From positions 1 to 64,000 of the forward strand of contig JAFDYX010000026.1 in the NCBI GenBank assembly GCA_018267215.1: DNA of 64,000 bases, in the 5' to 3' direction. Under the pieces are notes generated by a model. It saw only the letters and a list, made by a program, of their open reading frames with translations. It was not told the DNA's origin and did not search any database. The DNA comes from Bacteroidota bacterium. Its GTDB lineage: Bacteria > Bacteroidota > Bacteroidia > Cytophagales > Cyclobacteriaceae. Positions 16,810 through 22,713 of the stretch are shown here, piece by piece (the first letter of the stretch is position 1; each line of letters opens with the position of its first letter). The position numbers and the translations under genes are program-made.

Positions 16810-19308
16810 CTAAAAAGTAAAGCTGAAAGTAATCCGAAAAAAAGTATTTGCCGAAGGGTTAGCTAATTGATAGGGGCCGTAGCGATAAAACACGGCTCCG
16901 CCAAAACCCCAGTATGCCACGTTCGCATAATTTCCGCGAACGATATTGTTTAACCCCACACCTGATTCAATGTACCCTTTATCAAAACTTTGCAATGGCA
17001 CTCCCTGATGGGCGAGGGCATGATCCATCCGGCCGATGCCCGCGTTGTGGTATAGTACTAACTCTGGTTTAGAAAATTTTTTGTTGAGCAGCACGTTGCC
17101 GAAATTATGGTTTAAGAAAACAGATGCGTACTGCGTAGCCGTAAACTCATAAAGATCCATCGTTTGAAAATAATCGTCCACCAGATAGCTGATAGACCGT
17201 GTGCCCCGGCCATTGTAAAGTTTTCCGTACGGAGCCAGCCCGTCAATGTATCCGGCAGCCAGAAAAAATCTTGTCTTGCTGCCGTTGCGGTGGGTAAACA
17301 ATTGCTTGGCAGAAAAGTCTATCCGTTTGTAATTGAAATACAAGGCATCAAGCCACGGAGCTGCCTGTGCCAGCGACAAGGTGATGACCGGAAACTGCTG
17401 GCCGATAAAAACTTTTTTACCATTTAAGAGCAGGTAACTTTCATTACGGATGTACCGCAGCGCAATTCCAGTTTCGGCAATGGTAAAATGATTGATCATC
17501 TCACCGTTAAAGTTCAACTGATAGTTGTAGGTAGGCTCAATTTTGTTGTACGAGAAAAAAACCTGCGCATGCAAATTAGGCCTGACCAGGTAGCCCAGTT
17601 CTGCCTTTTGGTATTCGATGCGGTCGTACTGATACGCAGCCCACGACCGATAGCTGTCGGCACCCAGCAGTTGCCCTTCTTTGATGATGTGTGAAGAGCC
17701 TGTTTCGTAAATGTCTTTGGCGTACGAAAATTTCAAATAGAAATCTTTGTTCGTATTAAAATTAAAACGCACTTCGCCACCATATTTCCATTGCTTATCG
17801 AGAAAACCATAACCGGCATAACCGCCCAACCGCAGCCAGGATATAAACCGGCCGTTGGTGTACAGGCCAACACCCAAACGCCTGGATTCGTATTTATTTA
17901 TTCGCAAGAAACGGCTGATGTCAAAATCCAAAGGCCCCATCGGAACGGTTTGGGTAACCATCATTTCTAAAAAATGATCGAGCCAGCGCACCTTGCGCAT
18001 CACGCTGTCCATCATCGTGTAGGTTCTCTTCTCTTTCACATCTAAACTGTCGTTTCGAAAATGGTTTAATACTAAATTATTTTCTTTCTCCTTCGGCATA
18101 GTTAGGTCAATCTTCAAGTCACCAAATTGCGAACGGTTCAGGTGCGGATTGATTTTAATATCTTTTAAAAAACTACGTTGCCGGATTGTCATGTAGCGGC
18201 TGGCAAAATTTATTTGTCGCAGGGTAAGGTCGGTATTGAGTTGTGCCGGAAACCAATGCCCGTCTGTCTTTTCATAGTTTTGTTGCACCCGGATGCCCAC
18301 CTTGGCCAATGAGTCGGCCGATGAGGCAATCACATTTTTAATAGCCCAACCATCGGTGGTGATCGAAAGCATTCCCTTCAAGCCATTAAAAAATGTTTTG
18401 GGCTTGGGTTGGTAATGGATAATGTAAATCGTGTCGTTGCCGGCATACGTGGTATCGGCCAGTTGAAACTGGTAGCGGCCGAAAGTACCGCGGCTCACGG
18501 GGTTGACATAATTCTTGTCGAGCAGAAAAATATTGTCCTGATAAAATGAGATGGGTTGATAATTATTAGCCAAGCTGGTAAACATCGGACTTTTAAAACC
18601 TGACACCTGCAAGCCGATGAGCTTTTCTTTTTCCTTGTCGGGATTGACGACTTGTTTTTCTGTGACCGACTCACTCAGAAACAGATGTGAATGTTGCAAC
18701 ATGCTATCGAAACTAAGCAAATTTTTTTGCGACTCTTTCAGTTTCATGGTATCGGGTCTGTTTTTTAAAGCTTGCACAATGGAATCCATTTTTTTGGAGG
18801 CCGGCCCCATGGTTACCAAAAACTTATTGTACGAAGTATATTGGTATGATGAGAGGTAAGCCGGATCGTTATCTTTTTTGTGGGCAATAGCTTGGCGGAT
18901 GATACGGAATGCGGGGTTCTCTGCTTTTGTGCCGGTGATCGTAATTTCTCTTAGCTGCGTGGAGGCAGGCACCAGCCTGACCACCGGGTTGCTTTTCAAT
19001 TGTAAATACGAAACGCGCCTGCTTTTGTAACTGATATGTGTAATGGTGATGATGCCTGAATAATCTGCCGGAACTGACAACGTATAAGTTCCTTCAATAT
19101 CGGTCGTGCTGCCGTTTCGGCCATCACTTAAGGTCAGGTTGGCAAAAGCAATACCTTGGGTGTTGAGACTATCAATTATTTTTCCTTTGATAACCGATTG
19201 GCTGAATGTGTTGGTGACAGAAAGTATCACCATGAGTAGGCACACACCAATAACATCAATGTAAACAGTGAAAGACTTTCGACAAGGAAATTCAATTGCT
19301 TCAGCCAT
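16810..19308 (-). CDS. DUF5686 outer-membrane protein with carboxypeptidase-regulatory-like N-terminal domain
   Basis: A predicted 832-residue envelope protein. A hydrophobic signal region (about 19-36) precedes a CarboxypepD_reg-like beta-sandwich (GKIIDSLNTQGIAFANLTL and DIEGTYTLSV), as in TonB-dependent receptors. The rest matches DUF5686, with many aromatic-ended strands and a final FRITFSFTF typical of a beta-barrel closing strand. It is probably an outer-membrane barrel of unknown role. The ATG at 19308 was preferred to a GTG at 19323. The signal peptide begins unusually late, so the true start could be further inside. Confidence 0.85.
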   Translation of the reverse strand: MAEAIEFPCRKSFTVYIDVIGVCLLMVILSVTNTFSQSVIKGKIIDSLNTQGIAFANLTLSDGRNGSTTDIEGTYTLSVPADYSGIITITHISYKSRRVSYLQLKSNPVVRLVPASTQLREITITGTKAENPAFRIIRQAIAHKKDNDPAYLSSYQYTSYNKFLVTMGPASKKMDSIVQALKNRPDTMKLKESQKNLLSFDSMLQHSHLFLSESVTEKQVVNPDKEKEKLIGLQVSGFKSPMFTSLANNYQPISFYQDNIFLLDKNYVNPVSRGTFGRYQFQLADTTYAGNDTIYIIHYQPKPKTFFNGLKGMLSITTDGWAIKNVIASSADSLAKVGIRVQQNYEKTDGHWFPAQLNTDLTLRQINFASRYMTIRQRSFLKDIKINPHLNRSQFGDLKIDLTMPKEKENNLVLNHFRNDSLDVKEKRTYTMMDSVMRKVRWLDHFLEMMVTQTVPMGPLDFDISRFLRINKYESRRLGVGLYTNGRFISWLRLGGYAGYGFLDKQWKYGGEVRFNFNTNKDFYLKFSYAKDIYETGSSHIIKEGQLLGADSYRSWAAYQYDRIEYQKAELGYLVRPNLHAQVFFSYNKIEPTYNYQLNFNGEMINHFTIAETGIALRYIRNESYLLLNGKKVFIGQQFPVITLSLAQAAPWLDALYFNYKRIDFSAKQLFTHRNGSKTRFFLAAGYIDGLAPYGKLYNGRGTRSISYLVDDYFQTMDLYEFTATQYASVFLNHNFGNVLLNKKFSKPELVLYHNAGIGRMDHALAHQGVPLQSFDKGYIESGVGLNNIVRGNYANVAYWGFGGAVFYRYGPYQLANPSANTFFRITFSFTF

Positions 19309-19331
19309 CACCTCAATTGGCACAAGATCAA

Positions 19332-22300
19332 CTACAACACAATATTCACAATTTTCCCGGGCACGATAATTACTTTTTTAGGCGCTTTACCTTCGCTCCA
19401 CTTTTGCAAAACTTCCGAAGCCAGCACGTGCTTCTCTATGTCTTCCTTCGGCATATCAAGGGCGAAGTTCATTTTGGCACGCACTTTTCCATTGATGGAA
19501 ATGGGATATTCAAACGAGCTTTCGGTCAGGTATTGCTCATCGTATGCCGGATAGCTGGCATCGAAAACTGTTTCGGTGTGGCCGAGTTTTTCCCATAATT
19601 CTTCCGCGATGTGCGGGGCGAACGATGACAACGCAATGGTGAGCGGCTCCAGTACTTTCCGTTTGTTGCACTTAAGCGATGACAGTTCGTTGGCACAGAT
19701 CATAAACTCGCTCACCGAAGTGTTGAAAGAATAATGCTCGATGTCGTACGCTATTTTTTTAATTGTCTTGTGCAGCGCCTTCAGTTCTTCGCGGGTGGGC
19801 TCGGCATTGCTTAGGTTTACGTTGCCGTTGGCATCGTGAAACAAATTCCAAACCCGTCTTAAAAATTTATACACGCCATCAATGCCGCTGGTGCTCCACG
19901 GCTTGCTGGCTTCCAGCGGGCCGAGAAACATTTCGTACAAACGCAGTGTGTCTGCACCGTAGGCATCAATCACATCATCGGGGTTGACAACATTAAAATA
20001 CGACTTGCTCATTTTTTCGATGGCAGAACCGCAGATGTACACCTCACCCTGACCCTCTCCGGAGGAGAGAGAATTTTTATTTTCCAGAATGAATTCTGCA
20101 TGAGCAAAATCCGGCTTCCATTTTTTGAAGGCTTCGGTATCAAGTTCTAAGCCGTTAACAATATTTACATCAACATGCAAATCATCGTATTGCCCTTCAT
20201 GATGTTTTAATAAGCCTGCAGACACAAATTTGTTGGTTCCGCGTAAGCGATAAACAAACCTCGAATCGCCCGTAATCTTTCCTTGGTTAATCAGTTTCTT
20301 AAACGGCTCATCAAAATTTAAGTAACCTAAGTCGTGCAGAATTTTTACCCAAAGTCTTGAGTACAGCAAGTGTGCTACGGCATGCTCAGACCCACCGATG
20401 TACACATCTACCTGGTTCCAGTAGTCGAGTGCTTTTTTGCTCGCAAATTCTTTGCTGTTGTGCGGATCCATGTAGCGCAAAAAATACCAGGCAGCTCCCG
20501 CGTGCGTGGGCATGGTGTTGCTGTCGCGCTTGGCATTTTCAGAAAAATGAATCCAGTCTTTCAGGTTGGCGAGCGGGCCTTCGCCCGTGCCGCTTGGTTT
20601 AAAGTTGTTGGTGTCGGGCAGCGTGAGCGGCAAGTCTTTTTCATCCATGGCATAAGGCATGTCATCGCGGTACACTACAGGGAAGGGCTCGCCCCAGTAG
20701 CGTTGGCGGCTCCAGCCTGCATCGCGCATTTTGTAGTTTACCTGGCGCTTGCCAATTTTTTTCTCTTCCAGTTTGTTGATCACCACGTCAATTGCCTGAT
20801 GCATCGCCATACCGTTCAGAAAATCTGAATTTTCGAGGATGGCATCTTTGGTAGGGTTGGCGTCTGTGCCGTTATAATGTTTGCCTATAATGTTGGTGAT
20901 CGGCAGGTTAAAATGTTTGGCAAATTTATGATCGCGTTCATCGCCACAAGGCACGGCCATGATGGCGCCTGTGCCGTAGCCGGCCAATACATATTCGCTG
21001 ATCCACACCGGAATTTTTTTTTCGTTGAATGGGTTGACTGCGTAAGCACCGGTGAAGCATCCGGTTATTTTTTTTACCTCGGCCATGCGATCAACCTCCG
21101 AGCGGCTTTCCACATACTTCAAATAATTTTCTACTTCAGTTTTTTGTTCTTTCGTGGTGATGGATTTCACCAAGTCGTGTTCGGGCGCCAGCACCATGAA
21201 GTCCACCCCAAAGATAGTGTCGGGTCGGGTGGTGAAGACACGAATGACCTCACCCCCGGACCCCCTCTCCACAGGAGAGGGGGCGTTGAGCGCCTGTTTA
21301 ATTTCATGTAATACTTTTGGCAATGAATTGAGAATTTGATCGTTGGTAAATCGTATTACCTGAAATCCATCATCGCTGATTATTTGCTCTCGCTCCTTGT
21401 CTTCCCGCTGTTGGTTTTGATGGATAAGACCATCAACCTCAACCACTAATTTTTTTTCGATACAGACAAAATCCACTATAAACCGGCCGATGGCATGTTG
21501 TCTCCTAAACTTAGAGCCCAATTTATTATTCCTTACTTCTTGCCATAATATTTTCTCAGCTTCTGTCGGGTTGCCCCGGTTATCCTTTACATTTTCTTTT
21601 AAAGAATTCCATGTCTTGGAGTCAGTAGTGAAAATAAAATCTTGTGCATGAATTTCATTTTTCAAGGAGACACTCTCTTTATTCTTATCCTGTTCACTTC
21701 CCTCTCCTGTGGAGAGGGGTAGGGGTGAGGTCGCAAGGCGAAACTCTACTAACGCGCCCACACTTTTTCCGATCCAGTTGCGCTGGATTTCTTTCATCGA
21801 ATCGCTGAAGTCTATTTCTTCCAACCCCTTCAGCAGCCGGTCGGCATATTCGGTGATGCGCAAGCTCCACTGGCGCATTTGTTTTTTTACTACCGGAAAC
21901 CCTCCGCGGTAGCTTACGCCATTGATTACTTCATCGTTGGCCAGCACGGTACCCAGCGCTTCGCACCAGTTGACATCCGTGTAAGCCAGATAAGCCAGCC
22001 GGTATTCCATCAAAATTTCTTGCCGCAGTTTTTGATTGAACGACTTCCATTCTGAGGCGCTAAAATGTTGGAGCTTAAATTTGGAATTAGGAAAAGGATG
22101 ATTGGCATTTCCTTCATTTTCGAAAATCCAGGTGAGCGTAGTGATGCGTTCGGCCTTGTTGCTTTGGCGGTTGAACCAGCTATCAAAGATTTGCAAAAAT
22201 ATCCACTGTGTCCATTTATAATAGGAGGGGTCGCAGGTTTGCACTTCGCGGTTCCAGTCGTAGCAAAAGCCGATCTTCCCCATTTGTCTTTTAAAGTTCT

Positions 22301-22625
22301 GAATATTTTCCTGTGTGGATTTGGCCGGGTGCACACCATGTTCAATGGCATATTGTTCGGCCGGCAAGCCGAAAGCATCGAAGCCCATTGGGTGGAGTAC
22401 ATTAAACCCTTTTAATCTTTTAAATCGCGCCACAATATCGGAAGCGATGTACCCCAGCGGATGCCCTACATGCAAGCCCGCCCCGGAAGGGTAGGGAAAC
22501 ATATCGAGCACATAATACTTTGGCTTGGGGGAATCATTAGGAACTTGATAGGTCTGGTCTTTTGCCCACTTCGTGCGCCACTTCCCTTCAATGTGTTTAA
22601 TCTCTTCTTTGCTGTAATCGGCCAT
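19332..22625 (-). CDS. leuS: Leucyl-tRNA synthetase with an in-frame DUF559 nuclease-domain insertion
   Basis: A 1097-residue class I synthetase that charges tRNA-Leu; family members are about 800-950 residues. HVGH (52-55), the editing-domain TTRPDT motif and KMSKS (about 870) are present. About 160 extra residues (about 299-460) lie just before IRVFTTRPDTIFG in the CP1 editing domain. They contain a DUF559 fold with NPTEAEKILW (352-361), VDFVC (384-388) and VEVDG (395-399). A second, smaller insertion of about 12 residues precedes KMSKS. The reading frame is unbroken, so one long protein should be made. The start at MADYSKEE was chosen over an upstream TTG because the -7 promoter element lies at 22653. 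Confidence 0.95.
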   Translation of the reverse strand: MADYSKEEIKHIEGKWRTKWAKDQTYQVPNDSPKPKYYVLDMFPYPSGAGLHVGHPLGYIASDIVARFKRLKGFNVLHPMGFDAFGLPAEQYAIEHGVHPAKSTQENIQNFKRQMGKIGFCYDWNREVQTCDPSYYKWTQWIFLQIFDSWFNRQSNKAERITTLTWIFENEGNANHPFPNSKFKLQHFSASEWKSFNQKLRQEILMEYRLAYLAYTDVNWCEALGTVLANDEVINGVSYRGGFPVVKKQMRQWSLRITEYADRLLKGLEEIDFSDSMKEIQRNWIGKSVGALVEFRLATSPLPLSTGEGSEQDKNKESVSLKNEIHAQDFIFTTDSKTWNSLKENVKDNRGNPTEAEKILWQEVRNNKLGSKFRRQHAIGRFIVDFVCIEKKLVVEVDGLIHQNQQREDKEREQIISDDGFQVIRFTNDQILNSLPKVLHEIKQALNAPSPVERGSGGEVIRVFTTRPDTIFGVDFMVLAPEHDLVKSITTKEQKTEVENYLKYVESRSEVDRMAEVKKITGCFTGAYAVNPFNEKKIPVWISEYVLAGYGTGAIMAVPCGDERDHKFAKHFNLPITNIIGKHYNGTDANPTKDAILENSDFLNGMAMHQAIDVVINKLEEKKIGKRQVNYKMRDAGWSRQRYWGEPFPVVYRDDMPYAMDEKDLPLTLPDTNNFKPSGTGEGPLANLKDWIHFSENAKRDSNTMPTHAGAAWYFLRYMDPHNSKEFASKKALDYWNQVDVYIGGSEHAVAHLLYSRLWVKILHDLGYLNFDEPFKKLINQGKITGDSRFVYRLRGTNKFVSAGLLKHHEGQYDDLHVDVNIVNGLELDTEAFKKWKPDFAHAEFILENKNSLSSGEGQGEVYICGSAIEKMSKSYFNVVNPDDVIDAYGADTLRLYEMFLGPLEASKPWSTSGIDGVYKFLRRVWNLFHDANGNVNLSNAEPTREELKALHKTIKKIAYDIEHYSFNTSVSEFMICANELSSLKCNKRKVLEPLTIALSSFAPHIAEELWEKLGHTETVFDASYPAYDEQYLTESSFEYPISINGKVRAKMNFALDMPKEDIEKHVLASEVLQKWSEGKAPKKVIIVPGKIVNIVL
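20041..20071. repeat. Solo copy of the palindromic element end, in frame inside leuS
   Basis: ACCTCACCCTGACCCTCTCC followed by GGAGGAGAGAG matches the inverted ends of the DUF559 element at 21247-21731, including the internal CTCTCC/GGAGAG palindrome. On the leuS strand it encodes SLSSGEGQGEV directly before YICGSAIEKMSK. Related synthetases read roughly EDGKYICG here, so about 12 residues have been added. There is no partner end nearby. Confidence 0.8.
21247..21282. repeat. Left inverted end of the DUF559 element
   Basis: Begins ACCTCACCCC, then a 7-nt variable spacer, then the palindrome CCTCTCCACAGGAGAGGG. On the leuS strand it encodes PSPVERGSGGEV. Confidence 0.85.
21700..21731. repeat. 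Right inverted end of the DUF559 element
   Basis: Begins CCCTCTCCTGTGGAGAGG and ends GGGGTGAGGT, the reverse complement of the left end with a shorter spacer. On the leuS strand it encodes TSPLPLSTGEG. Confidence 0.85.
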
Positions 22626-22652
22626 AATACCTGAAAAAATATTAGTGAACCG

Positions 22653-22683
22653 CAAAAGTAACTCAATCCTGCAAATCAGGAAA
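22653..22683 (-). promoter_or_regulatory. Bacteroidota-type promoter of leuS
   Basis: On the minus strand TTTC (22680-22683), a 19-nt spacer and a perfect TACTTTTG (22653-22660) fit TTTG-N19-TAnnTTTG with one mismatch in the -33 element. Transcription would start a few bases downstream, leaving a leader of about 20 nt before the ATG at 22625. Confidence 0.6.
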
Positions 22684-22713
22684 CTTCAAGATGCTGGCAC
22701 ATCTCTCGCTATA

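Follow-up and report, generated by a model that had tools for sequence, protein, structure and literature searches.

How does a nuclease domain come to lie, in frame and between inverted palindromic ends, within an essential enzyme, and what allows it to persist there? The leucyl-tRNA synthetase gene (leuS) of a Bacteroidota bacterium of the family Cyclobacteriaceae (assembly GCA_018267215.1) poses this question. The gene lies in the 64,000-nucleotide stretch analysed here, designated the window (contig JAFDYX010000026.1, positions 1 to 64,000 of the forward strand), and it contains a palindrome-ended segment, hereafter the cassette, that encodes a domain of the DUF559 family. The segment is probably a copy of a non-splicing, in-frame mobile nuclease cassette. 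The features are as follows:

19332..22655, minus strand: leuS, leucyl-tRNA synthetase, the cassette host; one uninterrupted frame of 1107 amino acids, 1097 from the ATG start
21246..21732, no strand assigned: palindrome-ended in-frame cassette, with the inverted repeats GACCTCACCCC and GGGGTGAGGTC as its outer ends
21247..21256, plus strand: terminal tag ACCTCACCCC, the outermost 10 bp
21262..21281, no strand assigned: palindromic arm C-terminal to the domain, CCCCTCTCCACAGGAGAGGG
21288..21602, minus strand: DUF559 (PF04480) Vsr/EDxHD-like nuclease domain, fused to LeuS in the LeuS frame
21700..21719, no strand assigned: palindromic arm N-terminal to the domain, the inverse of the arm at 21262..21281
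21722..21731, minus strand: terminal tag, inverse copy, GGGGTGAGGT on the plus strand

LeuS of the window scores 931.5 bits against the NCBIfam model leuS_bact and is the sole leuS match in its genome. Pfam places DUF559 at residues 352–456 (E 3.3e-32; 111 bits against a cut-off of 20.6) within a segment spanning residues ~305 to ~469, and the match to the editing domain (residues 469–630) starts directly afterwards, the insert loop preceding the editing motif TTRPDT. Between equal protein anchors this loop measures 549 nt, compared with 78–102 nt in 15 domain-free loops from the same genus (78 nt in nine of them), so that the cassette adds about 450–470 nt. The insertion is real, and it has left an essential, single-copy gene open. 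A preliminary description of this DNA had indeed placed a DUF559 element in frame ahead of the editing domain, inserted without breaking the gene; the putative catalytic residues that it named, Asp385, Glu396 and Asp398, are present, and its numbering is right when counted from the ATG ten codons into the frame (the 1097-residue protein P0001). It had also considered that leuS might be a nonfunctional second copy, and no other copy exists in this genome. The genome is a draft in 35 contigs, which could raise the suspicion of an assembly artefact or a dead second gene copy. Such an error is hardly conceivable, as leuS and the second host gene described below, ileS, are each single, their frames are kept open, and the same type of insertion recurs in many independent genomes, named strains included.

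A spliced insert, be it an intein, an intron or another element removed from the product, would fit a location in a conserved gene, where inteins and homing introns also reside. We regard it as very improbable: no Hint or intein family was found across the whole LeuS protein (Pfam, NCBIfam), Rfam yielded no match at E values up to 0.1 for positions 19300–22700, and the reading frame is uninterrupted throughout. An identity as intron or intein was rejected on this basis, and no sign of the splicing that the preliminary description had considered was detected in the leuS sequence. The DUF559 domain has the catalytic fold of the EDxHD/Vsr-like homing endonuclease family, being related to the homing endonuclease I-Bth0305I (PDB 3r3p) and, by fold, to Vsr; rather than being encoded in an intron or intein or standing free, the nuclease is here fused in frame to LeuS.

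The two 20-bp arms are a perfect inverted repeat of one another (21262–21281 against 21700–21719), each is itself palindromic (CCCTCTCC-n3-GGAGAGGG), and over a longer stretch of 33–36 bp the inverted ends are 86% matched, much as first described. Chance is excluded for ends of this kind, as an inverted-end score of at least 14 was reached by 44 of 101 DUF559 loci, compared with none of 101 mononucleotide shuffles and six of 101 cross-pairs. The same score was obtained for 59 of 139 copies embedded in frames of at least 280 amino acids (shuffled 0, cross-pairs 10) and for 18 of 33 short DUF559 loci (shuffled 0, cross-pairs 3). Furthermore, hairpin stems of at least 8 bp lay within 150 bp on one or both sides of 90 of the 139 embedded copies (4 when shuffled) and on both sides of 52 (0 when shuffled), the shuffles for embedded and short loci being likewise mononucleotide. 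The preliminary description had left room for relatives that carry the domain without repeat ends; inverted or palindromic ends proved to be common at DUF559 loci. Of 172 loci, 47 had the exact tag CCTCACCCC on one or both sides in the expected orientation (13 the wrong way round, 1 with the reversed control), and the tag thus marks a subset of cassettes. Only exact matches discriminate from the reversed control: a search allowing one mismatch was unspecific, with 72 hits upstream and 70 downstream against 48 and 44 for the control (of 172). Where copies from different places were compared, namely LeuS sites 1 and 2 (L054/L123), two different MetH sites (L214/L239), and HsdS and a PglX-like enzyme (L044/L147), a palindrome marked the limit of similarity on one or both sides. 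The palindromes are an integral component of the cassette and are carried along when it moves.

Just two DUF559 matches occur in the genome under study, the leuS copy and one at G000:C16:133361-133687 inside the isoleucyl-tRNA synthetase gene (ileS), which is single-copy and forms one open frame of 1300 amino acids; both DUF559 domains of this bacterium are therefore inside tRNA synthetases. The ileS copy had been missed by the preliminary description, as had a further element of leuS itself:

20041..20072, no strand assigned: second palindrome in leuS, without DUF559, ACCTCACCC..CCTCTCCGGAGGAGAGA, in frame and read as SSGEGQGEV

The same genome contains a family of ~107-bp elements resembling miniature inverted-repeat transposable elements (MITEs), with the ends ACCTCACCCC/GGGGTGAGGT of the cassette and a central CCCCTCTCCnnnGGAGAGGGG palindrome, which lack DUF559 and lie in no long frame (for example L006, L008, L009 and L014, on contigs C2, C11, C13 and C21). 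Outside leuS, the frames surrounding the palindromes checked in L006–L019 do not exceed 135 amino acids, and palindrome L020 is situated near the start of a frame of 322.

Another possible explanation, which we hold to be rather doubtful, is that a different enzyme, such as a Y1 transposase of the type associated with repetitive extragenic palindromes (REPs; RAYT), moves the palindromes, that DUF559 is mere cargo, as in a passenger resembling the Rickettsia palindromic elements (RPEs), and that spread between species is ordinary recombination of host genes. The genome has three Y1_Tnp matches, all off the two contigs bearing cassettes, and the one on C11 is ~1.1 kb from a ~107-bp DUF559-less MITE with cassette-type ends. 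Nuclease-free palindromic elements in frame are known from the RPEs (available portion of PMC10969869), and REPs from within repair and tRNA synthetase genes (available portion of PMC3733652). The palindrome CCTCTCCN{2,5}GGAGAGG, moreover, occurs in 29 of the 226 genomes of a Bacteroidota sample that lack a strong DUF559 match (strong meaning a best E of at most 1.1e-16) and is absent from 87 of the 166 with one. However, its presence in the other 79 of these 166 means that it tracks DUF559 (odds ratio 6.2, p 3e-14, kinship between genomes ignored), palindromes flank the domain far above shuffles at embedded and short loci alike, and the catalytic residues are conserved within hosts.

The history of the leuS loop was followed in relatives. 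At the window loop, 12 of 30 LeuS loci were filled and 18 empty, these loci being the best matches of a leuS search and not a random sample; the domain-free loops in close relatives are the empty sites that the preliminary description had proposed to look for. Within the genus, this position (site 1) is filled in 12 of 36 genomes, that of the window included, LeuS having been at least partly recovered in 33. On a LeuS tree of 36 rows, constructed with the insert left out, the filled state changes 10 times, at least nine of these changes being forced by starred branches, and the label shows no more clustering than randomised ones, 272 of 500 shuffles giving a count as low. In addition, two cassette types, A and B (clade support in the DUF559 tree 98/97 and 98/69), alternate at site 1 across the LeuS tree, and two hosts with 92% identity over their first 600 residues (L059 and L052) carry inserts with 47% identity. 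Simple vertical descent of one insertion is thereby excluded, and the trees show repeated gain, loss or replacement of the cassette at one leuS loop.

Other material was also observed in LeuS loops. Empty loops of five relatives (L066, L155, L156, L157 and L158) consist of AATTCAAAATTC-like repeats, and the same loop thus seems open to other repeat insertions. Nuclease-free in-frame inserts of palindrome type were seen at LeuS site 2 (L164, L087, L108) and near the KMSKS motif (L052, L127, L131, L084); these short inserts may be scars or small relatives of the cassette.

The distribution extends well beyond leuS. In the Bacteroidota-wide sample, 222 of 392 genomes had a DUF559 match, and among the best 150 matches, ranked best first and not random, 52 belong to open frames that reach 280 amino acids or more and 41 to frames that reach 600. 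Based on Pfam scans of 38 chosen proteins, the hosts include synthetases (IleS, LeuS, MetG, ValS), repair enzymes and helicases (RecG, RecJ, UvrC, UvrD-like helicases) as well as RNase H, restriction and methylation enzymes (HsdR, HsdM, HsdS, type ISP, PglX-like enzymes with DUF7149/DUF7814/Eco57I, DNA methylases) and other proteins (MetH, methylmalonyl-CoA mutase, HemF, HemD, HisF, QueG, an amidohydrolase, N-formylglutamate amidohydrolase, adenine deaminase, CoA-transferase, M23 peptidase). A member of the orotidine-5'-phosphate-decarboxylase family, here named PyrF, and a CobB/CobQ-type glutamine amidotransferase, probably PurL, were also identified; in a few of the 38 proteins no host family was found beside DUF559. 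Cassettes interrupt or are fused to more than 20 host families, mainly in Bacteroidota. Among 140 distinct embedded copies, 112 have at least 80 amino acids of open frame past the linkers on both sides; the remainder are terminal fusions, for which a stop-to-stop frame may overstate the fusion, and eight of the 140 have no host label, in a count where the LeuS group includes MetG and ValS. By eye, one LeuS (P0085) has cassettes at two sites simultaneously and one IleS (P0079) has two cassettes. Carriers include Gillisia mitskevichiae, Maribacter luteus, Tamlana nanhaiensis and Flavobacterium indicum, and cassettes are likewise present in LeuS of a Paceibacterota member and in PyrF of a member of Dehalococcoidia. 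The ACCTCACCCC letters recur at this PyrF copy and at an Anaerolineales locus (L177, L203). One HsdR (L113, genome G318) has a GIY-YIG nuclease domain besides its DUF559 insert (residues 251–316 and 443–547), and two different nuclease domains may thus be nested in a single protein. Phage or plasmid carriage was rejected as an obvious vehicle, DUF559 being rare on both types of record (2 of 50,697 phage and 39 of 72,556 plasmid records, 16 of the 30 plasmids listed exceeding 1 Mb).

RecG provided a second host in which filled and empty genes could be compared. A database search with the RecG insert, limited to candidates of 0.55–1.75 times the query length, returned 1074 proteins at E up to 1e-8, the best 120 nearly all RecG. 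RecG matches were found in 119 of 121 genomes in the genus of G140 (probably Flavobacterium, judging from what similar RecG proteins are called), and six of the 30 recG loci fetched were filled, the others having no DUF559. One of these unfilled loci (L259, genome G531) retains a short palindrome-like piece at the insertion site, possibly an excision or deletion scar. As to movement between genes, the DUF559 tree has 100 rows and few columns, and many of its forks are open; in it the IleS copy of the studied genome nests in a MetH clade, the HsdS and PglX-like copies named above group as sisters, and the LeuS copies from site 2 fall inside type B of site 1.

The domain and its putative catalytic residues are shown to be under constraint within their hosts: in the DUF559 cores D385 and E396 are kept in 100 of 100 and D398 in 97 of 100, in a sample where weak or decayed matches are under-represented, which biases it toward intact catalytic residues. 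Constraint in situ would also be expected if DUF559 had been domesticated, that is, recruited as a working part that, for instance, couples translation or repair enzymes to nucleic-acid cleavage, and some sites recur in members of different families, the MetH clade being an example. We consider domestication improbable, as presence is scattered among the closest relatives, two cassette lineages occupy one site, the more than 20 hosts are functionally unrelated, and the palindromic ends are of mobile type.

The occurrence of cassettes across so many enzymes suggests that a mobile element survives in them by remaining an additional domain of the protein, not by being spliced out. The unit would consist of a DUF559 domain of ~110 residues flanked by palindromic ends in inverted orientation, its reading frame being uninterrupted throughout; it occupies loops or linkers of enzymes that are long and often essential, and it may persist as a nested, translated domain, no splicing being needed. 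We infer that DUF559 cuts DNA at empty alleles or related palindromes, and that repair of the break would copy the cassette in, in a homing-like manner, or carry it to a new site; homology to I-Bth0305I and the scattered presence on the LeuS tree support homing. Insertions out of frame in essential genes would be lost, and those in frame in tolerant loops would remain. The preliminary description had spoken of selection for coding-compatible insertion, which is better put as survivorship of in-frame insertions in tolerant loops of essential genes. Short palindrome-only pieces in frame are probably deletion products or small relatives. The further proposal, that the cassettes form an autonomous class of homing elements, palindrome-ended and permanently nested in frame, with the host enzyme as expression vehicle and DUF559 mobilising the repeats, is a genuine possibility that we advance tentatively.

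Several observations weigh against this account. Many clades of the DUF559 tree track the host site, so that a jump from one gene to another seems to be an uncommon event, and vertical inheritance with loss could account for part of the pattern. In RecG the filled label changes five times across the tree (35 rows, five from other searches), three of these changes forced, and is clustered (0 of 500 shuffles as low), which points to longer residence in RecG than in LeuS; presence scattered against the host tree, the mark of homing, is thus found in LeuS and is weaker in RecG. The trees cannot separate nuclease-driven homing from plain recombination between species. No clear target-site duplication appeared in the LeuS or RecG filled/empty comparisons, so that of the marks of insertion sequences and MITEs the inverted ends are present, and no clear duplication is visible at the compared empty sites. 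The exact terminal tag is confined to the 47 of 172 loci, and 49 of 139 embedded copies have no 8-bp hairpin nearby. As regards constraint, the sampling bias stated above counts here too, 45 database LeuS rows with an insert at the window site include one N at 385 and one A at 396, and in the dN/dS comparison the synonymous divergence dS is saturated in all 66 LeuS site-1 pairs, three of eight other chosen pairs not being computable. Finally, the structure model of full-length LeuS is of modest confidence (mean predicted local distance difference test score 71.1, predicted template-modelling score 0.54).

If the mobile-cassette reading is true, DUF559, a large family of unknown function, would gain a biological role, palindromic repeats lacking a transposase would gain a candidate enzyme, and nucleases would have a third way, besides introns and inteins, to inhabit conserved genes. 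LeuRS, IleRS, RecG and MetH would repeatedly accept a foreign domain of ~110 residues, and the insertion sites would serve as ready maps of where host enzymes tolerate fused domains. In open-licence PubMed Central text, judged mainly from titles and the beginnings of abstracts, there was no recognisable account of in-frame DUF559 cassettes.

Known systems resemble the cassette in part. Inteins, too, lie in frame at conserved positions in essential enzymes and frequently include a nuclease domain; in contrast, no splicing domain was found in LeuS, and the host protein must work with the cassette in place. I-Bth0305I (PDB 3r3p) was deposited as a mobile intron protein, whereas the cassette has neither intron nor intein, its nuclease is fused to the host enzyme and its ends are palindromic. 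VsrA of Caulobacter is a DUF559 protein to which in vivo DNA damage has been linked; unlike the cassette it is a separate gene, with a proposed role in mismatch repair (both from the available portion of PMC12907096). The likeness in idea to RPEs, already suggested in the preliminary description, holds, since both are palindromic elements lying in frame in unrelated genes and translated with the host; RPEs are ~150 bp long with a conserved peptide, according to the portion of PMC10969869 available, whereas the cassettes measure ~450–470 bp and encode a nuclease domain of ~110 residues. REPs and REPtrons, as far as the accessible portion of PMC3733652 describes them, share with the cassette short tagged palindromes flanking a nucleic-acid enzyme, and copies that lie within genes for repair proteins and tRNA synthetases. 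They differ in that the tag of the cassette, in the window and part of the set, is CCTCACCCC and not GTAG or CGTC, and in that its enzyme is DUF559 instead of a Y1 transposase and is nested in host proteins. The presence of REPs and RPEs in overlapping host genes fits a process shared with the cassettes.
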